From Scatolibacter rhodanostii (GTDB taxonomy: Bacteria; Bacillota; Clostridia; Oscillospirales; Acutalibacteraceae), in the NCBI RefSeq assembly GCF_900197595.1, contig NZ_FZLO01000003.1:1-64000 (forward strand): 64,000 nt of DNA, in the 5' to 3' direction. Positions 1,605 through 14,466 of the stretch are shown piece after piece. How positions within the stretch are numbered: the stretch's first letter is position 1; each line of letters starts with the position of its first letter. A model generated the notes under the pieces. The model had not been told where the DNA came from. It saw nothing but the letters and a program-made list of their open reading frames with translations, and made no database searches. A program made the translations under genes and the position numbers.

Positions 1605-1835
1605 TTATTCAACTATCCTAAACCCATCAATCCCAACAATCAAGTTCAAACCTTCCCCGTTATCCCACCGACACAGTATATGCTCCTTGTCGTCAACGCC
1701 AATAACAGTCGCCTTGTCACCGACTTTTAGCTTTGTATAGGGGTCATCCATCGGTGCGGTTAGCTCAACACGAGTGCCAGCTGGGTAGTCCTTGCTAATA
1801 CGCTCGACTTTTGCTTTTGTAGGAAAATTATTCAT
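1605..1835 (-). CDS. DUF4314 family phage protein
   Basis: A 76-residue protein with the DUF4314 pattern: a YPAGTRVELTAPMDD segment near residues 17-31, KVGDKATVIGVDD, then CRWDNGEGL and a C-terminal GIDGFRI. It resembles a small SH3-like barrel. Proteins of this family are common next to terminase genes in Clostridia prophages; function is unknown. The ATG at 1835 is chosen because GAGGTGCAGGGTG precedes it and it overlaps the end of the upstream gene by eight bases (ATGAATAA), suggesting translational coupling. An in-frame extension upstream is coding sequence of the neighbouring gene in another frame. Confidence 0.8.
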   Translation of the reverse strand: MNNFPTKAKVERISKDYPAGTRVELTAPMDDPYTKLKVGDKATVIGVDDKEHILCRWDNGEGLNLIVGIDGFRIVE

Positions 1836-2508
1836 CACCCTGCACCTCATTTTCTGTGGTGTCAGGGTGTTCTTTTTGTGGTTTTCCATAGCGAAAAGCA
1901 GAATTTCCGCTCAAATTCTCACCCATGATTTTCCTCAGATATTTATACTCAACCCCTGTACACCCGAGAGAAATAAGCCAAACCCTCATGGTAAATTTCT
2001 CGTTGTCAACGCCATCCTGTTGTTTAGCATTCACACGCTTTTTCTCTTTTGCTGTGTTGCAAAGTGCGGTGACGAGTTGTGCGTATGCGTGAACACGCTC
2101 ACTGTCCTCTGTAAACATGCACCATGGGAATTGAACTCTATCCTCCAAAAGCAGAATCGGTAATTCCTCAACTCCAAGTGCTGTCATGAGCAGATTTTCC
2201 TTTGATTTTACCATTTTGCGTAGATTTTCAAGGCTGTTTTCTGTGAAACCGTCAAGTGGTATTTCAATGGTAATGCTGTCTGGAATTGGCACACTTTCTG
2301 GGATAAAACCTTGTTTTTCAAGTTGTTCTAAAAGCTTGGCGGTTACTTCACCTGTTAGCGTTCCTTGCTTGTCAATGTGAATTTGACCCACTTCATATGC
2401 CGCCGAGGGCATACCCAAGTACTTGATTGGCTGATTCAATATTTCCGAAATAGCACCAACCAGTCTTTTTCGCTCTGCGCCCATCACGTTGAATTTGTAT
2501 TCTTGCAT
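1828..2508 (-). CDS. Mobile-element 'virulence-related' protein of unknown function
   Basis: This 226-residue protein matches a family often labelled 'virulence-related protein' in Clostridia prophages and integrative elements. Its hallmarks are an N-terminal FNVMGAERKRLVGAISEIL segment, a DKQGTLTG turn, a central LTIEIPLDGF-like block (here ITIEIPLDGF) and a C-terminal region rich in KEKKRV and KLSGNSAFR-like motifs (ENLSGNSAFRYGKP). No catalytic motif is visible, and the 'virulence' label has no mechanistic basis that I know of. GGAGGTACAAAA precedes the ATG at 2508. It is encoded between the ParB-methyltransferase remnant and DUF4314, and its upstream end is split from that remnant by the plus-strand methyltransferase gene. 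Confidence 0.72.
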   Translation of the reverse strand: MQEYKFNVMGAERKRLVGAISEILNQPIKYLGMPSAAYEVGQIHIDKQGTLTGEVTAKLLEQLEKQGFIPESVPIPDSITIEIPLDGFTENSLENLRKMVKSKENLLMTALGVEELPILLLEDRVQFPWCMFTEDSERVHAYAQLVTALCNTAKEKKRVNAKQQDGVDNEKFTMRVWLISLGCTGVEYKYLRKIMGENLSGNSAFRYGKPQKEHPDTTENEVQGDE

Positions 2509-2707
2509 TTTTGTACCTCCAAGAGTGTTTTTTACGTTTCCGTACACACATTAACGCTCTAAAAGCAAGTGAAGTCAAGGAACAAAACATAGATATTAGA
2601 TGGTTTCACTTGTATAAAGTTCGAAATGGAGATGTTGACTTTATTATATACAAGTGTTATTATTAATTCTAAAAAGCCAATTATATTTTTGAAAGGGGCT
2701 GATCGTT

Positions 2708-2764
2708 ATGAATTTCAATCAGAGAATTGCATGTAACAAAATATGGAGGGTGACAATATTTTAA
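2708..2764 (+). CDS. Putative 18-residue leader peptide of the methyltransferase gene
   Basis: The frame encodes MNFNQRIACNKIWRVTIF and stops at TAA 2762-2764. AAGGGG (2694-2698 region) lies nine bases upstream of its ATG, a good ribosome binding site. Its last codons run through GGAGGGT (2745-2751), and its stop touches the complementary ACCCTCC (2764-2770). A ribosome on this peptide would therefore control which arm of the following structure can pair. Translation is inferred. Confidence 0.55.
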   Translation: MNFNQRIACNKIWRVTIF

Positions 2765-2783
2765 CCCTCCTACAAAATGGAGG
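2745..2783 (+). promoter_or_regulatory. Three-segment RNA switch masking a ribosome binding site
   Basis: Segment 1 GGAGGGT (2745-2751) and segment 3 GGAGG (2779-2783) are both complementary to segment 2 ACCCTCC (2764-2770). Segment 3 is the Shine-Dalgarno of the methyltransferase starting at 2789. Pairing 1:2 frees it; pairing 2:3 hides it. A ribosome terminating or stalled at the leader stop (2762-2764) would cover segment 2 and also free it. This is the layout of translational attenuators such as those before erm genes, although here with three segments instead of four. Confidence 0.6.
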
Positions 2784-2788
2784 AAATT

Positions 2789-3619
2789 ATGTTTGAAAAA
2801 TCAAGAGACTATTTGGCGAAACCAGAGCTATATATTCCAAGCACTGATCCCTTTTGGGATGATGAACATATATCAAAAGGAATGCTTGAAGCACATCTTA
2901 ATCCACACTGGGATGCAGCAACTCGTAAAAGTGACTTCTTAGACATGTCGGTTAGTTGGATAGCCTCAATAGCTCCGCCAAAGCAATTTCATCAATTACT
3001 GGATTTGGGGTGCGGTCCTGGACTATATGCCGAACGGTTTAATAGTGTCGGATATTCGGTGATAGGGATTGACTTTTCCAGTCGCTCAATTGAATATGCG
3101 AAAGAACAAACACAGCATAATAAAAGTAATATCGAATACCATTATCAAAATTATTTAACAATTGATCATGTTGAGAAATTTGATGTAATAACGTTGATAT
3201 ACTGTGATTACGCCGCATTATCAATTACTGATCGGCTCATTCTATTAGAGAAAATTCATCGAGCGTTAAGACCAAATGGTAAATTTATCTTCGATGTATT
3301 CACTCCTAAAATGAGAAAAAAAGAAAGTCGAACTTGGTGTTATGAAGAGAAAGGCGGCTTCTTTTGCAAAGAACCATATATCTGTTTAGAATCCATTTAT
3401 CAATACGACGACTATGATGAAACGGAATTAAGACAAAGTATTGTGCTTAACGAAACAGAGGTACATTGCTATAACATTTGGGATCATTTCTTCACTAAAG
3501 AAAAACTGTTATCAGAAGCTCAACCTATAGGATTTGGCGCGTATGATTTTTATGGTGATGTTTCAGGTAAAAAATACTCAGATGCGGAAGAGACAATTTG
3601 TTGTGTGTTTACTAAGTAG
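2789..3619 (+). CDS. Class I SAM-dependent methyltransferase (cargo gene)
   Basis: A 276-residue methyltransferase. The SAM-binding motif I is LLDLGCGPGLYAERF around residue 70, followed by a GIDFSSRSIEYA motif (acidic residue that binds ribose) and a TLIYCDYAALS motif IV-like segment. The C-terminal third has mixed strands as in small-molecule methyltransferases. ATG 2789 has GGAGG five bases upstream; an in-frame ATG at 2777 has none. The substrate is unknown. A close paralogue of the same length lies at 13636-14466 next to a TetR gene; the two share FW(D/N)DEHISK and GCGPGLYAERF. It has its own leader peptide and RNA switch, and converges with the ParB-methyltransferase remnant. Confidence 0.85.
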   Translation: MFEKSRDYLAKPELYIPSTDPFWDDEHISKGMLEAHLNPHWDAATRKSDFLDMSVSWIASIAPPKQFHQLLDLGCGPGLYAERFNSVGYSVIGIDFSSRSIEYAKEQTQHNKSNIEYHYQNYLTIDHVEKFDVITLIYCDYAALSITDRLILLEKIHRALRPNGKFIFDVFTPKMRKKESRTWCYEEKGGFFCKEPYICLESIYQYDDYDETELRQSIVLNETEVHCYNIWDHFFTKEKLLSEAQPIGFGAYDFYGDVSGKKYSDAEETICCVFTK

Positions 3620-3673
3620 ACACTATTAATATTATGAGTCTAATACGAAACTGAGAAACTCAACTTATTAATA

Positions 3674-3710
3674 AAAGGGCAACCAAGTAGCGATAACTTG
3701 GTTACCCTTT
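3674..3710. terminator. Hairpin between convergent methyltransferase and ParB-methyltransferase remnant
   Basis: A 15-bp inverted repeat (3674-3688 with 3696-3710) has one C/A mismatch on the plus strand that becomes a G/U pair on the minus strand. T-rich sequence follows on both sides. It probably serves both convergent genes. Confidence 0.65.
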
Positions 3711-3715
3711 GTATT

Positions 3716-4981
3716 TTATGACAGTTCGTGATATGTCGTTTTCTCCCCATTCCTAAGCAAAAATATCCCCTCATCACTCTCTTTGAACGCAATAAATCGC
3801 TTCACAATCACATCGCAGTATTTTGGATCAAGCTCCATTAAGCGAGCAACACGGTCGCATTGCTCAGCCGCCAGAAGTGTCGTCCCCGAGCCACCGAATA
3901 AATCCAGCACTATATCGCCGTCACGAGAAGAGTTGTTGATGGTTTTCGCCACCAGTGCCACTGGCTTCATGGTGGGGTGTTCCTCTGACTTTTTCGGTCT
4001 GGGAATCTCCCAGACGTCCGATTGCCCACGGTCTTTCAGCTCCACCAGCCGTGCTTTACCCTCAAGCCAACCATACCAAATCGGCTCATATTGCGTATGT
4101 TAATCCTTGCGTGACAGCACGAGAGAATCCTTGTACCAGATAATCGTCGATGACCAGTGAAAGCCACTTTCTTGGAGTGCTTGCATACAAGAACCCCACT
4201 CCTGCGCACTCATAGCCAAATACAGGATAGCTCCCGGTTCGCAAGCTGTAGCTAAAGCTTTGCATGAATCTAGCAAAAAATCATAGAAATCAACAGCGGA
4301 CATCTTGTCGTTCATGATTGTGCGTTTCTTCCACGAGGGGTGGGCAGAACCGCCGTAATCTACATTCCACGGTGGATCACAAAAGCTCATTTGCGCCTTT
4401 TTGCCGTCCATGAGTGTTGCGACTTGCTCTAAATCCGCGGAATTCCCACACATCAAGCGGTGTTTGCCAATCAGCCAAATATCACCAAGCTGGGTAATAG
4501 GTTCGGTTATCTTTTCAGCCTCTGTATCAGCATCAAAATCGTCTTCTTTGTACTCGCCAGACTCACGGCGAACCTCCTGATACAGCTTATCAAGCTCCTG
4601 CGTTTCAAAACCAAGCAGCGGAATTTCCATGCCAGCAGACTCAATATCCGTAATCACAGTGTACAATTTAGGTCTATCCCAATCGCCTTGAATGCGATTC
4701 AGTGCCACATTCAGCATTTTCTCACGCACTTCGTCCATGTCTACCACAACGCAGTCGATTTCCGTGTAGCCAAGATGCTGCAGAACCTTAAACCGCTGAT
4801 GTCCACCCACAATATTGCCTGTGCGAGAATTCCAGATGACAGGCTCTACATACCCGAACTCCTCCACCGAACGAAGGAGTTTTTCATAGTCTTTATCGCC
4901 CGGTTGCAAATCAACACGAGGGTTGTATGTCGCCGGATTCAGCTTATCAGCAGAAACTTTTTGAATTTGCATATCACCCAT
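3716..4981 (-). pseudogene. ParB-like/DNA methyltransferase fusion, split by an in-frame TAA
   Basis: The reading frame runs from ATG 4981 (AGGAG seven bases upstream) to 3716, 421 codons, with one in-frame TAA at 4100-4102 (codon 294). The first 140 residues are a ParB/Srx-type nuclease-like domain with the GGHQR motif (TGNIVGGHQRFKVLQHLGY). The rest is a beta-class N4/N6-adenine or cytosine methyltransferase: catalytic DPPW (SFCDPPWNVDYGG) comes before the SAM-binding FGGSGTT (LDLFGGSGTTLLAAEQ) in the downstream half. On both sides of the TAA the frame is unchanged and the sequence still reads as methyltransferase (SLVLSRKD-stop-HTQYEPIWYGW), so a single TAT-to-TAA change is the simplest explanation. 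The methylase is probably dead because the SAM motif lies after the stop. It sits right after the small terminase, four bases apart. Confidence 0.82.
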
Positions 4982-4985
4982 AACT

Positions 4986-5522
4986 TTACTCCTGTTTCGA
5001 TTTTTTACGCGTTCTGCCGCCAAACATCACTTTCATCAGGTCTTGCTCCGGGTTATCGACTGTGCGCTCACTGTTGCGAGAAATAATGTCCCAAATGGTC
5101 GCCCAAATTGCCAGCACAATTTTTTCCTGTTTCATGGCAAGCTCTGGATATTTTGAAATCTCCACATCACCGTTGTCAGTCTTGCCCACAATGGGGTAAA
5201 AACGTGACTCATACTGGGTTTGCAGCAGATTGTATTTCGCCAGAGCATACTCCGTGATGAGTTCACGTGGAATGAGGTATAAACAGCCGGAAGGCTCCAT
5301 GTAACGAATTGCTTCCCGATAAATCTCAGATGGTTTTTGTGTGGGGCGGTCTTTGATTCTAATCATGTCATCGAGGTAACCAGGTGGCTCTGATGGGTCA
5401 TAAGTATCGTCAAAAAACGCCACTTTCGTGAGCGGACGGTGACCAGGATTGCCAGCCGCAATCTTCTCTGCAAGGGGTTTAGGCTTGCGTCCTGCGCCTT
5501 TTCTTGCGCCGCCTCTGGGCAT
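4986..5522 (-). CDS. Phage small terminase subunit, P27 family
   Basis: A 178-residue protein opening with PRGGARKGAGRKPKPLAEK, the basic glycine/arginine-rich start of P27-type small terminases, followed by HRPL and a helical region that ends in a basic tail. The small subunit recognises the phage pac or cos site and hands DNA to the large terminase. ATG 5522 is chosen because GGAGGG lies about seven bases upstream; a longer frame starts at 5570 without a site. The gene directly precedes the ParB-methyltransferase remnant and follows the HNH gene, the usual order HNH-TerS-TerL of HK97-like phages. Confidence 0.85.
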   Translation of the reverse strand: MPRGGARKGAGRKPKPLAEKIAAGNPGHRPLTKVAFFDDTYDPSEPPGYLDDMIRIKDRPTQKPSEIYREAIRYMEPSGCLYLIPRELITEYALAKYNLLQTQYESRFYPIVGKTDNGDVEISKYPELAMKQEKIVLAIWATIWDIISRNSERTVDNPEQDLMKVMFGGRTRKKSKQE

Positions 5523-5791
5523 GGCTATCCCTCCTGTTTGAATCTCTCTTGTTTTATGATATGCTATCACTTTTCAAAACTTGCTTGTACGGGATTTATT
5601 TGTCAGAACCTGTCCTTTTGTGCCGAACCCTTGTCCGTGCCGAATTTTTCTTGTCCTGCCGCCGTTTTGCGTCTGCTCTGCGTTTTTCCCACCCCAAAAT
5701 CCGTACATTTTTAGACTTTTGCGATACAAAATGATTGATTTATTCTGACTTTCTGAAAAACAAGGGAAATATCAGAGTTTTAGACATGACA

Positions 5792-5822
5792 AAGTCCCAC
5801 AAACACTGGGTTTGTGGGACTT
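5792..5822. repeat. Perfect 13-bp hairpin between HNH and small terminase genes
   Basis: AAGTCCCACAAAC (5792-5804) and GTTTGTGGGACTT (5810-5822) flank the loop ACTGG. It lies in a 380-base gene-free stretch (5523-5903), the only structure I see there. No long T-run follows on either strand, so it may be a terminator, an RNA processing site or a packaging-related site near the terminase genes. Confidence 0.5.
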
Positions 5823-5903
5823 CTGAAATCTTTGAAATCGCGTAAGTTTAGCGCGAAACCCTGCGCCGATTGCGCAGCAAAGGGTGGTAGAGATAGATAC
5901 CCC

Positions 5904-6245
5904 CTACCCCCGACGGTGGATTTTGTTGTGACAAGAATGGCATAGCGACATGAGATTGGAATCTTCATGTGTTCCACCGTTTTCGGTGGGAACAATGTGA
6001 TGCACAAGGTTGGCAGGGGTGAGCTTATCAGACTTCAAACATTCTTCGCATAGAGGGTGCTTGGAAAAATAAAGGTCACGTAGGACACGCCAGCGGTGAT
6101 CATAAGTGCTGGAATAATCAGCTCTACGAGCGGTAGCATTGTAGTCACGGTTCACAATGGTTTTATGTTTCGGACAGTATCGTCCCTCACGAATTACCTC
6201 GGGGCAGCCGGGGTAAGCACAGGGTTTAAATGGCTTTTGTGGCAT
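5904..6245 (-). CDS. HNH endonuclease (phage packaging-associated)
   Basis: A 113-residue protein with two zinc-binding cysteine pairs and an HNH core: CAYPGC and YCPKH near the N-terminus, LCEEC around residue 70, then LVHHIVPTENGGTHED with the catalytic histidines, and CHSCHNKIH at the end. HNH proteins of this type are encoded beside terminase genes in many phages and assist DNA cleavage by the large terminase. ATG 6245 has AGGAG seven bases upstream; a TTG two codons earlier is less likely. It ends with TAG, which shows that TAG is read as stop in this module. Confidence 0.85.
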   Translation of the reverse strand: MPQKPFKPCAYPGCPEVIREGRYCPKHKTIVNRDYNATARRADYSSTYDHRWRVLRDLYFSKHPLCEECLKSDKLTPANLVHHIVPTENGGTHEDSNLMSLCHSCHNKIHRRG

Positions 6246-6498
6246 AAGCAAGCTCCTTTCAAAAGGACTGGCATGAACGGCAAACAGGGAGAGAACACCA
6301 GCTCTACTATATCTTTTATATCTTTTTAGCGTTTTATTTTACGCTTCGCGTTATGCAATAACTTTGGAAAAAGCCTTTGTGCCGTTCCAAACCGCATGAA
6401 CACGAGATAAATACCCTTCCGAATAGTGTTCCATACCATGTGAAAGCGTTCCCAAAAGGGCAAAAAAATAAAGGTTATTTGTCGGGGAGTTCTGCTTT

Positions 6499-9012
6499 TC
6501 AACGCAGTTTTAAGCCTTTGAAAATTGCTCTGCGAGTAATGGGTTCATCATGCAGTGTGACAACTCCACGCTGAGAATTTGTTACTTCTTTCAGAAAATT
6601 TGGAAAAGACACCTTGCCGCGATTGTTTGCGTTACAATACTCCACGAATGCACCGTAGACTTCTTTACGGTAACTGACAGCATCTGGTTCGAGCAAACAC
6701 TGCTCCTGAATAAAAGCGAGAACCGTGTTATTTTCAATCTTATAGGCTTGCAGCTCTGCTTTGGTGCGCTTGGTTTCGGTAAACTGATAGTGGCTAGCAA
6801 TTAGCCTTTTCAAGCCGTCTATTGCCTAGAGTAAAATGCCGTCACGTTCCAGAGACAGTTTATCCCCAAGCTGGAGGTCGTGCTTGTCGGGAGGCACAGG
6901 CTTACTGAATCGAATGATGATTAGACGGCGGTAAAAGGCTTCGCTTTTGTCACCATAGTTGCGTGGAATGTCGTTGCAAGAATACAAGAATCGGGCAAAT
7001 GGTTTAAAACTGAATGGGTCTTTGTGTTTGCGCTCGCCTGTAATGTAATCTTCACCAGTGACAGCTTTGAACATACCCGCATCGTCAATCTTCTTTGAGG
7101 GTAGGTCGGCAAATATATTTGCCAGTTTTCCGAAGAGCTCTGCTGGCTGGAAACGGTCGGACAGGGATTGAAGCGGTATATTACTGACATTTTCAGCACC
7201 CAGCAGAAACTCTTGTAAACAGGTAAGAATCGTGGATTTACCCACATTCGGTAAACCGCAGAGTAAAAAGCTTTTCTGTGCCTTTGTGATGGGTACAAGA
7301 AAATATCCGAAAATCTCTTGTATTAAGTTGATTTCAGGCGGCTCAAGGGCACTGTTCAGAAATTCCATAAAGCGTGGACATTTTGCCTCAGGGTTATAGT
7401 TTGCTTTCATCTGAACGGTTGAATAATACGCTGGTTCGTGGTCACGAAAAGAATCATCAAGCACATTGTATAAGCCATTTTTGCAGTTGATAATAAAAGG
7501 GTTTGCATTGACTTCCCGAATAGCCTTTCGGATTGTCAGCTGCCATTGACCCTCAACATCGTTGATTTGGTTCATGGTGACATCACGCGGATTGAGGTAA
7601 GTGCGAACAGTGGCTTTTGCATCTTTTTCTGTTCGTGGCTGATAAACGCCAGTTTCATAGAAATAATATTGCTCCGTGCAGTAGAAAGCATGAAATGTTC
7701 CCATCAGATGATTGGCAAGGATACCAGGCATTAAGCGTGGAACACCATTTCTATTAACCTCGTACCACTCGTCTAAGCCTGACTTCCTCTTTTTCACTTC
7801 ATTATGACTGACAAATTTGCTATAAATCTCACGATACAAGGCTATCAATCCACGCACATCACTGGATTTATATTCAAAATGCTTCTTCATGTCATATCGA
7901 ATGAACGGCTCGGCAAGAGAAGGCTCTTGGTTGTAGAGATAATCAGCAATATAGCGATTAGCAAGCTGTAAATCGGCAACCGTATCACCTGACTTTTTGA
8001 TGGAATCCAGCCATTTCTTGAGTTCCACCAGTGTTGCAGGAAAAAAGGCTAACCCGGCTGGAGATTTTGCTTTGCATTTATGTTCATGAGGGCATTTAAA
8101 GTCGCCCTCAAAGATTTTCTTGCAAGTAATCGGCTTTGTTCCAGAAGCGTGAAAATGCTCAATTTTGCTTTGGGTCTGACGAAACGAATACTTGGGGTAC
8201 GGCTTTGAGAGCTTGTGAATGGCTTCTTCACCGCCCTCGAACACAGCCATGTTGGAAATCATAGCGTACCAATCCGGTTCTGGAAGCGTTTTAGCTTTTC
8301 TTTTACAATAGGTGAAAAAAGGGCATTTTCTTCCCATGAGAGATAGCCCTTTTTGCTGTCCACGCTCTTTTATAGCAGATGATTCAGTTCTATTCGAGAA
8401 GCTTTCTTCCTCTGGAATTTCAGGCAGTTCTGCCGAAATCTCTGCTTGTGTATAACGCAGTTCTGGGTTGAATTTGATGCACTGCACCAAAACAGGCTCG
8501 CCCTTGCAGTGATAGAAGCCTGGAATCCGCATAACTCGGCTCTCGTTGATACATTTGGGATCACCAGAAAATTGCTTCACCAATAGCCCTTGAATAGGTC
8601 GGAATTTCTCTACTTTGGCACTGCTTTTCATCAGCCAATAACAGTGGAGGGATTTCTGTGTTTTGACAATAATAGAGGGTTCGATTTTAAACACTTTGAT
8701 TTTTTCAAGCTGTTCTTCAAAAGAGCAATTGTCCATTTCGACAAACTGCGCATTAACCCGGTTAATGGTTTCATCCTCGTGACCGCCGGAATTCACAACA
8801 AAGAAAACGCCTCTGTCAGCCTTGTTATGTCGTTCCAATGTTTCGGTTATATCGGAAAAAGCTTCAAGTAGGCATTCGAGCTTTTGCCCGGCAAAGCTGC
8901 CATCGCCCTTATCTTCAAAAACACGCAAACAAACGCGATCTTCCGGTTCAAAGAAAGCGTGCAGGAAATCTTCTGACGGCACATTGATTGGAGTTAGCGA
9001 ATAGGCACTCAT
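6499..9012 (-). pseudogene. P4/D5-type phage primase-helicase, split by an in-frame TAG
   Basis: The frame from ATG 9012 (GGGAGG upstream) to 6499 gives 837 codons with one in-frame TAG at 6826-6828 (codon 729). The N-terminal half has features of virus-type primases (FVEMDN, HCYWLMK); the C-terminal half is an SF3-type helicase with Walker A GLPNVGKSTIL near residue 590 and the SCNDIP and YRRLIIIRF motifs. After the stop the same frame continues as AIDGLKRLIASHYQF. The stop falls where this family has a conserved tryptophan (G-I-L-x-W-A-x-x-G-L), so TGG to TAG is the simplest change. All catalytic motifs precede the stop, so a truncated protein may still be active. The ribosome binding site overlaps the end of the polymerase gene. 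Confidence 0.85.
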
Positions 9013-9013
9013 G

Positions 9014-10951
9014 TTACACCTCCCATTCGTGGAGTTCACCGAAACGTTTCCCTGCAGCAGCCTCAGCGATAATTGGCACAGAAAATGCTTCAAATGGCTG
9101 TTGTTCCATGCAATTTTTGATGAAATTCACGGTATTTTCAAGCTGTTTTTCAGGAATTTCAAAGACCAATTCATCATGTATTTGTAGAATCGGCATCAAC
9201 CATGGGCGATCAGGCAAGCCTTTTAGAATCCTTGCCATAGAAAGTTTCAGAATATCTGCAGCTGTGCCTTGGATTGGAGTGTTCATCGCTACACGTTCGG
9301 CAAAGGATTTTTTCGCCCAATTTGAGGAGGCGATATCGGGTAGATTGCGCCGTCTGCCAAGCCAAGTTTCAGTGTATCGACGAAACCCAGCACGCTTCTT
9401 GACTTCTTCCTGCCAACGCTCAAGTCTAGGATAGCCGATTTTCAAGTTGCGAATAATGGTTTCACATTCTTCAAGGGAAACGGTCAGCCCTGCCTTGAAT
9501 TTCAAAGTTTTCTGTAATCCCTTTGGGAACAAGCCGAAGAACGTACCGAAATTGCAGTTTTTAGCTATGGTACGGCGTTCCTTGTACTGTGGGTGATTTT
9601 TATCACTGGCTTCTTCAATGGGAATACGATAAATGACGGCGGTTGTGAGTGCGTGAATATCACCGCCGTTTTGGTAAGTTTCGAGCATCCGCTCATCTTT
9701 GCAGTAAAAAGTACCCACACGCAATTCTATTTGAGAAAAGTCTAGTGATAACAGCAACTTACCCTCGGAAGCAACCATGAAATTACGGACGCCGACATCA
9801 TCAGCGCCACTTCTCGGCATATTCTGACAGTTAGGCGAGCGTGAAGCGAATCGTCCTGTTTCAGTTGCAAGAGGCAGTAGATCGGGATGAATCCGACCTG
9901 TGGCTGTGTTAATGTATTTCAAATAGCCGTCTATGTAGGTACTTTTGATTTTCGCCCAATGTCGGTATTCTTGTACATAATCGAATAAGGGTACGAGATT
10001 TGGTTTGTTTTCTGCACACCATTCTTTCAACAGAATAATCGCTTCGTCATCAAGTGCGTTGTTTTCTTTGGCGGTGAGCTTCATTCTGGGAAGTTTCAAT
10101 GTGTCAAAAAGATACTTCTTGAAAGCAGCTGTACTGGCATTTGAGCCAATGTTAATATCACCGATAATGAACTGGATTTCATACTTGAGTTGCCCAAGTT
10201 TTAAATCACATTCCTTTCGCTTTGCAAGCATGAGATTCTTATCAAAGGGTAGTCCGTTGTATCGCATAATGCCAACATAGACGGCGGTTGGTGATTCGAT
10301 TTTCTCCACAATATATCTGTGCTTAGGCAGGAAACGGTCAAACCAGTTGTTCAGCAGATGATACAACCGCAGAGCATAGTCTGCATCGGCACAGGCATAA
10401 CAGACTGTTTTTTCATCTTGTGGGTTGAGTTCATCAAAGTGTTTGCTGCCAACGGTATCCTCATATGAGGGTAGTTGTTCGTTAAAAAACTCTTTTGCTA
10501 GAGTTTTTAGTCCACAGTCACCAAGGGTACGAAATTCTTTCTCATTCTTGTAAATGAGCTGCGCGGCTGCAATGGTATCATAGCACGGTTCTTGTACTAC
10601 AATGCTGCCACCGGGGCTCCCGGCACGAGCGTAGAGAAACTGGCTCTCGAAAGCAAGGTTGTGGGAGATTTTGGTGATGCTAAAATCAGCGAAGAAGTCT
10701 GTAAGCCAAACCCATATCTCCGCTTGATTTTCTGCATTTTCACCTGTTTTATGAACTAGTGGCAGATATACGGCACTGTTTTCAGCAACGGAAAAGCTAA
10801 TGCCAACGATATGCGACTTATGAGCATCGAGTGCTGATTTCTCTTCAACCCTGTATTTTTCATCTGGCGCGGTTTCAAAATCGAAGGCGACAATGGTTGC
10901 GCCAGAGAGGGAGTTCTGTAGGTCTAATAGAGATAGAATAGGTTTGTACAT
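9014..10951 (-). CDS. Phage family A DNA polymerase
   Basis: A complete 645-residue Pol I-type enzyme. The 3'-5' exonuclease domain shows Exo I DFET (24-27), Exo II HNLAFE (97-102) and an Exo III-like YACADADYALRL (185-196). The polymerase domain has motif A LDFSQIELR, motif B RRTIAKNCNFGTFFG and motif C LQIHDELVFE. There is no 5'-3' nuclease domain, as usual in phage enzymes. ATG 10951 lies nine bases after AGGAGG. It would synthesise phage DNA with the primase-helicase encoded immediately downstream (one-base gap, with overlapping Shine-Dalgarno). Unlike the primase and ParB-methyltransferase genes it is intact. Confidence 0.92.
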   Translation of the reverse strand: MYKPILSLLDLQNSLSGATIVAFDFETAPDEKYRVEEKSALDAHKSHIVGISFSVAENSAVYLPLVHKTGENAENQAEIWVWLTDFFADFSITKISHNLAFESQFLYARAGSPGGSIVVQEPCYDTIAAAQLIYKNEKEFRTLGDCGLKTLAKEFFNEQLPSYEDTVGSKHFDELNPQDEKTVCYACADADYALRLYHLLNNWFDRFLPKHRYIVEKIESPTAVYVGIMRYNGLPFDKNLMLAKRKECDLKLGQLKYEIQFIIGDINIGSNASTAAFKKYLFDTLKLPRMKLTAKENNALDDEAIILLKEWCAENKPNLVPLFDYVQEYRHWAKIKSTYIDGYLKYINTATGRIHPDLLPLATETGRFASRSPNCQNMPRSGADDVGVRNFMVASEGKLLLSLDFSQIELRVGTFYCKDERMLETYQNGGDIHALTTAVIYRIPIEEASDKNHPQYKERRTIAKNCNFGTFFGLFPKGLQKTLKFKAGLTVSLEECETIIRNLKIGYPRLERWQEEVKKRAGFRRYTETWLGRRRNLPDIASSNWAKKSFAERVAMNTPIQGTAADILKLSMARILKGLPDRPWLMPILQIHDELVFEIPEKQLENTVNFIKNCMEQQPFEAFSVPIIAEAAAGKRFGELHEWEV

Positions 10952-13635: not shown

Positions 13636-14466
13636 ATGTATAATAACATTTTTAAGCACTTGGAACGTCCAACGCTCTATAAGCAAAATGATGAGATCTT
13701 TTGGAATGATGAACATATTTCAAAACACATGCTTGCAGCCCACCTTAACCCTGATTTTGACGGTGCAAGCCGAAAATTATGCTTTATTGACCAGTCTGTA
13801 AAATGGATATCAGAAATTATACCGTTTTATGACTATCCCCGATTATTGGACATAGGTTGTGGTCCGGGGTTATACGCTGAGCGGTTTTGTAAAACCGGTT
13901 ATAAAGTAACGGGAATTGATTTTTCAAAACGCTCAATTGAATATGCTAAGAATTCTGCGAATAAGCAAGGTTTAGATATTACTTATGTTTATCAAGACTA
14001 TCTGAAAATGGATTACAGCAATGTTTTTGATTTAGCCACCTTTATTTATTGCGATTACGGTGCTCTGTCAACCGAAAACAGAGCAATTATTCTACGGAAA
14101 ATATACCATAGTCTAAAAGTTGGCGGAAAACTCGTATTGGATGTATTTTCTATGGTGAAATACGACGATTTTGAAGAAATGAAAACTTGGAACATTCATG
14201 AGAATGGCGGATTTTGGAGCGCAAAAAGATATCTGTCATTAAAAGCACACTACAAGTATTCTGACAATGTGACACTGGAACAAACAGCTGTTATCACCGA
14301 CAGTGAAATCAAAGAATACTGCATATGGAATTCTTGCTTTACGTTAAAAACCCTAATGAGAGAGGCAAATGAAGCAGGATTTCACAAATTTGCAGCATTC
14401 AGTGATGTAACCGGAAAAGCTTATACGGAAAACAGCCACACGATTGCAGTTGTTTTAGAGAAATAG
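13636..14466 (+). CDS. Class I SAM-dependent methyltransferase (paralogue of 2789-3619)
   Basis: A 276-residue methyltransferase with motif I LLDIGCGPGLYAERF near residue 74, GIDFSKRSIEYA, and TFIYCDYGALS. It has the same length and the same landmark segments as the gene at 2789-3619, and visual comparison suggests well over 40 percent identity, so both are one family, likely small-molecule methyltransferases. The gene follows a TetR regulator and precedes a ferredoxin-domain protein in one operon. Unlike its paralogue it has no leader-peptide structure; regulation is by the TetR operator. The substrate is unknown. Confidence 0.87.
   Translation: MYNNIFKHLERPTLYKQNDEIFWNDEHISKHMLAAHLNPDFDGASRKLCFIDQSVKWISEIIPFYDYPRLLDIGCGPGLYAERFCKTGYKVTGIDFSKRSIEYAKNSANKQGLDITYVYQDYLKMDYSNVFDLATFIYCDYGALSTENRAIILRKIYHSLKVGGKLVLDVFSMVKYDDFEEMKTWNIHENGGFWSAKRYLSLKAHYKYSDNVTLEQTAVITDSEIKEYCIWNSCFTLKTLMREANEAGFHKFAAFSDVTGKAYTENSHTIAVVLEK

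Follow-up and report, generated by a model that had tools for sequence, protein, structure and literature searches.

A short leader-peptide switch shared by unrelated antibiotic-resistance-like genes in soil bacteria is probably an undescribed antibiotic-sensing element

The window analysed here, the whole stretch of 64,000 nucleotides from a Scatolibacter rhodanostii contig, contains a short open reading frame (ORF) immediately upstream of a gene for a SAM-dependent methyltransferase, and the question raised by this locus is whether the RNA at the junction of the two works as a regulatory switch and, if so, what that switch responds to. The first-pass annotation had described a leader peptide with three complementary segments, the second of them abutted by the leader stop codon, and direct reading of the sequence located all of these elements, which are listed below together with their surroundings.

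2607-2616 and 2647-2656, no strand assigned: 10-bp dyad CACTTGTATA around the -35 region, found by an inverted-repeat scan; a possible transcription-factor operator
2635-2663, + strand: predicted sigma-70-type promoter TTGACT-17-TATTAT with an extended TG, from a consensus scan
2691-2698, + strand: Shine-Dalgarno (SD) sequence of the leader ORF, GAAAGGGG, read from the sequence
2708-2764, + strand: leader ORF of 18 codons plus TAA, encoding MNFNQRIACNKIWRVTIF (ATG at 2708-2710, TAA at 2762-2764)
2745-2751, + strand: segment 1, GGAGGGT, within leader codons 13-15; pairs with segment 2
2764-2770, + strand: segment 2, ACCCTCC, the anti-SD arm; able to pair with either of the other two segments
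2779-2783, + strand: segment 3, GGAGG, the methyltransferase SD; predicted to be closed by segment 2 when a ribosome is on segment 1
2789-3619, + strand: class I SAM-dependent methyltransferase of 276 aa (ATG at 2789-2791), its fold being that of small-molecule/peptide methyltransferases

The last base of the leader stop codon is also the first base of segment 2 (2764). As isolated hairpins, segments 1 and 2 form a structure of -12.6 kcal/mol and segments 2 and 3 one of -9.2 kcal/mol, and since segment 2 is common to both, the two hairpins compete for it and are mutually exclusive, as had been claimed. This arrangement was recreated in 1 of 20,000 dinucleotide shuffles of 2708-2778, the criterion being a perfect 7-nt inverted repeat that contains CCTCC and lies upstream of the SD, which was held fixed. 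In addition, neither the window (0 expected) nor the 2.7-Mb genome contains a second match to the 25-nt core. Taken as a whole, the surrounding 167 nt fold with an ordinary total energy (z = -0.33), and the claim thus rests on the arrangement and on comparison, not on overall stability. An alternative pairing upstream of segment 1 in the window fold was dropped, being absent from the homologous locus of Lachnoclostridium sp. UBA1308 (L031).

Homologues of the window methyltransferase (family A; twenty relatives from genome contigs, the others from whole genomes) had been expected to retain the leader and the complementary segments, but most of them possess the enzyme without the leader, indicating that the leader is dispensable for the function of the gene. 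Among the retrieved homologues, the complete switch was kept only in L031 (75% identity), whose leader reads MIINNIITRNNNKRRVTII up to its stop and which shares the GGAGGGTGACAATA-N-TTTA core and all three segments, with two changes in segment 2 relative to the window, both of them wobble-compatible. The Paenibacillus homologues L040 and L034 (68-72% identity) have the promoter-proximal sequence in common, the leader body and segment 2 are gone and the SD is free, a loss resembling the deletion alleles of erm leaders. Likewise, the covariance search for the three segments across methyltransferase homologues, which had been suggested as a check, gave good scores with a model of the switch family for the window and L031 only, among 70 sources (373 kb) with the methyltransferase family or its relatives. 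The idea of a switch nevertheless survives these losses in family A, because the same switch recurs on unrelated genes.

A search of plasmids revealed the same core, with a leader reading MKKTAVLPTNGRATIL up to its stop, before an MsbA-type ABC exporter on a plasmid of Paenibacillus cellulositrophicus; this was the sole real match of the whole-leader DNA search in plasmids, the rest being chance (e.g., Enterobacter serine-protease genes). A pattern built from these three copies (GGAGGGYGACNATANTTTARCCCTC, up to three mismatches) gave 24 matches in 396 Paenibacillaceae genomes against 3 with the reversed-pattern control, and about 20 of the 24 precede an ABC exporter, a GNAT acetyltransferase, an APH-type kinase or a methyltransferase of a further family. 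One genuine copy was found among viral contigs (L164), and 389 genomes of Bacilli at large held one true copy only, the already found L160, suggesting that the switch family is concentrated in Paenibacillaceae. The 14-mer GGAGGGTGACAATA alone hit 53 viral contigs, all by chance except for the window's own element, and L165, L166, L167, L180 and L181 were likewise set aside as chance matches with no leader or with the SD out of register. After the removal of chance matches, 23 distinct copies including the window remained before six gene families, 21 of them beyond the window and L031, upstream of five other families in Paenibacillaceae genomes, plasmids and viral contigs.

Methyltransferase A: window, L031
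Methyltransferase B: L160, L161, L168, L172, L184
Methyltransferase C: L162, L164, L169, L174, L176, L178, L179
ABC exporter: L159 (sequence identical to L170), L163, L173, L175, L177, L185
GNAT acetyltransferase: L171
APH-type kinase: L182, L183

Each of the six downstream families (methyltransferases, an exporter, an acetyltransferase and a kinase) is of a class that is linked with resistance. The occurrence of the same switch and the same peptide ending before five other, unrelated resistance-like families suggests that it is probably an antibiotic-sensing control element. For methyltransferases B and C themselves, no plasmid relatives were found, and for family C the same scan found none in viral contigs either. 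Some copies seem to be decaying, given that the downstream frame of L184 is apparently interrupted, the kinase frame of L182 is short, and L160 and L162 have no evident leader start. Such decayed leaders, together with the segments lost from L034 and L040 and the lack of the switch in most family A homologues, would fit a chance arrangement or a historical remnant without present function in the window; the window copy, however, matches the family core exactly and has its leader start, SD and stop intact, and we regard this explanation as very improbable.

The leader C-terminus reads [W/G/R]-R-[V/A]-T-I-[L/I/F/V]-stop in nearly all 23 copies (exceptions: WRAAIL, WRVTTL, WRGTIL and RRATLA), a core conservation that is partly circular, several C-terminal bases having been fixed by the search pattern. 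Of the 19 coding mismatches to the pattern, 14 fell at third codon positions, 3 at second and 2 at first (binomial P = 0.0004, relatedness ignored), and this concentration at third positions argues that the peptide is selected; the final sense codon, of which the pattern had left the first base free, encodes a hydrophobic residue (L, I, F or V) in 22 of the 23 copies. Both features are less predetermined by the pattern. As judged from these sequences, the evidence points to selection on the leader peptide end. The leaders are about 13-19 codons long, SD-like GAAAGG/GAAGGG sites precede most of those in the relatives, and their N-termini are unrelated between most gene groups, those of methyltransferases B and C being alike.

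As for the RNA segments, the search pattern included neither the start codon nor the SD of the regulated gene, yet a GGAG SD lies 7-10 nt after segment 2 in 23/23 copies, with all five 2:3 pairs formed in 22/23. In the two kinase copies, segments 1, 2 and 3 are altered together to GGAGAG, CTCTCC and GGAGAG, respectively. For helix 1:2, 94% of the cells are paired, against at most 67% once the helix is slid, and covariation was not above a within-column shuffle control, the pairs hardly varying and a triple change occurring once.

The effect of a translating ribosome was modelled by constrained folding, in which a footprint from -12 to +15 relative to the P-site was stepped along the leader, and the resulting accessibility profile was similar in nearly all copies. 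Across 21 leaders, the predicted mean SD accessibility stayed at 0.01-0.05 for P-sites 10 to 4 codons ahead of the stop and rose to 0.36-0.54 once the P-site was within 3 codons of the stop or at the stop itself. At 11-13 codons ahead of the stop, it averaged 0.41-0.49, without opening the SD in every copy, and in the window it was 0.59-0.77 for P-sites from codon 3 to codon 8, so that a second mode of induction, by early stalling, is conceivable. In the model without a ribosome, SD accessibility differed among the copies from 0.00 to 0.91. The first-pass annotation had taken the exclusive pairings as the switch; their exclusivity holds, but it does not suffice for induction in the model, where the SD stays free beside the 1:2 hairpin and is tightly closed with a ribosome on segment 1, and the conserved C-terminus is therefore the likely sensor.

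The reading that we favour, at a probability of roughly 0.6, is that the element is a leader-peptide translational attenuator of an undescribed family, induced by ribosome arrest at the leader end, which is preferred as the inducing event since only the C-terminus is conserved. Transcription would start at about 2670, and ribosomes would translate the 18-codon leader; with a ribosome on segment 1, short of segment 2 (P-site at about codons 9-15), segment 2 would pair with the SD and close it, and with a ribosome held at the last codons or the stop codon, segment 2 would be masked and the SD open. R-[V/A]-T-I-[L/I/F/V]-stop would be the likely arrest sensor, and a small molecule bound to the ribosome, probably the antibiotic that the regulated enzyme or exporter acts on, would delay the final steps of elongation or termination and thereby turn on methyltransferase translation, while segment 1, by competing for segment 2, may reset or tune the switch. 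We infer leader translation, arrest at the leader end, induction by a drug and the identity of that drug alike, the response to a drug being suggested by the classes of the downstream genes.

An early arrest as in ErmC, whose leader is a four-segment set, would instead have a drug-bound ribosome stall in the first ~8 codons, so that the free segment 1 takes segment 2 and releases the SD, normal translation keeping segment 1 covered and the SD closed. The modelled opening at window codons 3-8 and, in many relatives, 11-13 codons ahead of the stop is consistent with such a stall; however, it would require no R-V-T-I-L-stop, whereas it is the C-terminus that is conserved and the N-termini that are not between most gene groups, and L163, L177 and L178 show no SD opening at early positions in the model. 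We consider early arrest unlikely. Constitutive translational coupling, whereby ribosomes ending the leader open the SD and re-initiate with nothing being sensed, would account for the stop codon abutting segment 2 and for the open SD with a modelled ribosome at the stop, but it leaves unexplained both the amino-acid conservation at the leader end, with third codon positions free, and the confinement to resistance-type genes across six families, and is in our view improbable. Amino-acid attenuation, in which starvation stalls the ribosome at the Trp/Arg codons (TGG AGG) and closes the SD, is scarcely credible: many copies do have W-R at the segment 1 codons, and the model does predict a closed SD with the P-site there, but Gly or Arg replaces Trp in 11/23 copies, the GG and AGG bases are required for pairing anyway, and the downstream genes are not biosynthetic.

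Leader-end arrest, the favoured reading, places the element in a known kind, leader-peptide translational attenuation (erm/cat/tlrB type). In accordance with that kind, a short leader with its own SD and start lies upstream of the gene here and in most relatives, a hairpin able to sequester the main SD overlaps or abuts the leader end, SD accessibility varies with ribosome position in silico (constrained folding), and the leader peptide appears selected (14/19 coding mismatches at third positions, with divergent N-termini). Regarding other classes, the R/K-X-R/K motif of macrolide arrest leaders (+X+) is not found at the conserved end, which is R-[V/A]-T-I, and no intrinsic terminator with a U-run, as in transcription attenuators of the bmrB/trp type, lies between the leader and the gene. 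A weak 5-bp stem at 2766-2783, considered as a terminator, is the SD hairpin itself, followed by AAATTATGTT with no U-run. Moreover, Rfam covariance models gave no credible match in the window or in seven relatives. The suggestion of an unrecognised riboregulator thus stands as a leader-peptide translational attenuator, given the six gene families, the conserved peptide end and SD pairing, and the lack of an Rfam match, and falls in so far as mutual exclusivity alone was to bring about induction.

Among the closest single systems is tlrB (yxjB), for tylosin resistance in Bacillus subtilis, also a soil member of the Bacillota, which shares a short leader with a conserved arrest motif, here a putative one, at its C-terminus next to the stop codon, and the sequestration of the SD of a SAM methyltransferase gene in a hairpin that a stalled ribosome prevents (PMC6851288). 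The tlrB system differs in its macrolide R/K-X-R/K motif (MIIQFIRYR), its added terminator and NusG pausing, and its methylation of 23S rRNA (PMC6851288), whereas the window leader ends in R-V-T-I-L/I/F, has no terminator before the gene and precedes an enzyme with a small-molecule methyltransferase fold. The ermC and ermB attenuators share a leader peptide, competing hairpins, SD sequestration, presumed stalling and a methyltransferase target (PMC5118997, PMC10219788); in contrast, the window has three short segments, the second of them starting at the leader stop, and neither its leader nor its enzyme is related to Erm. In bmrB-bmrCD of Bacillus subtilis, a leader ORF controls an ABC multidrug exporter, as in the ABC-transporter copies here, but through transcription termination and a 53-aa leader rather than SD sequestration and a short leader (PMC4191407). 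In TnaC, a ligand arrests the ribosome when the stop codon occupies the A-site and the final sense codon the P-site, which is the step proposed here, but TnaC senses tryptophan, ends in Pro and acts via Rho-dependent transcription termination (PMC8429421). The proposed leader-end arrest thus combines the C-terminal arrest of tlrB with the termination-arrest step of TnaC (PMC6851288, PMC8429421). The open literature, to which the search was confined, held nothing relevant on the peptide end or on such Paenibacillus leaders, and the peptide family, the three-segment layout abutting the stop codon and the spread over six gene families appear to be new. If the favoured reading is true, unrelated resistance-type genes in different bacterial orders form one regulon, defined by a small exchangeable leader; this leader could then be used as a tag in searching for unknown resistance genes and, in a reporter, to find the antibiotic to which those genes answer, and its arrest sequence would be a further one beyond the macrolide +X+ class already known.

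The 276-aa methyltransferase, which had been assigned to a class other than Erm, indeed has general Methyltransf_25/11 matches in Pfam, with no Erm model among the matches listed. Its AlphaFold model (pLDDT 89) is nearest to cypemycin CypM, crocagin CgnL, celesticetin CcbJ and glycine N-methyltransferase; as these nearest folds are small-molecule/peptide methyltransferases, the model suggests a small molecule rather than rRNA as the more likely substrate. In addition, the APH-family phosphotransferase adjoining the methyltransferase (584-1561) has the amicoumacin kinase as its nearest solved relative (6sui, E 3.7e-18), as has the L183 kinase behind one switch copy (E 7.5e-29). Bacillus makes amicoumacin, an inhibitor of translation whose gene cluster includes AmiN (PMC12366304). 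This kinase likeness is a lead for the inducer, at a distance too great to assign a substrate to the kinase. A more specific proposal, which we hold as doubtful, is that R-[V/A]-T-I-[L/I/F/V]-stop could be a new drug-dependent termination-arrest peptide and that one natural antibiotic, subject to methylation, acetylation, phosphorylation and export, might block release at the leader stop and turn on unrelated detoxifying genes that have acquired the leader; amicoumacin or a relative would be the best lead for that antibiotic, because two linked kinases are nearest to the amicoumacin kinase.

In L031, ORF reading at 4036-5860 indicated two genes after the methyltransferase, one for a PadR-like regulator and one for a glycosyltransferase of the macrolide-glycosylating kind. 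The window itself encodes a methyltransferase paralogue at 13636-14460 (46% identity), with a regulator-like ORF directly upstream and no RVTI leader. A second, different leader was detected at 437-583 before the APH-type kinase gene, comprising an ORF that reads MKIYSLMKNRSDIAHNVNIQ up to its stop (437-499) and a strong terminator-like hairpin (GCACTTCTG-TTTTT-CAGAAGTGC plus ATTTTTATTT, -15.6 kcal/mol); it looks like ribosome-mediated transcription attenuation, and the plasmid search found no relative of it. The + strand kinase and methyltransferase are set amid - strand phage-type genes across 1605-9093 (DNA methyltransferase/ParB, terminase small subunit, HNH endonuclease and primase), which gives the two genes the appearance of cargo in a prophage-like element; part of this element is filed in IMG/VR (L105). 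Within this region, two adjacent - strand ORFs at 3716-5023 each match one half of a single phage DNA methyltransferase family (phrog_498), which suggests an interrupted gene.
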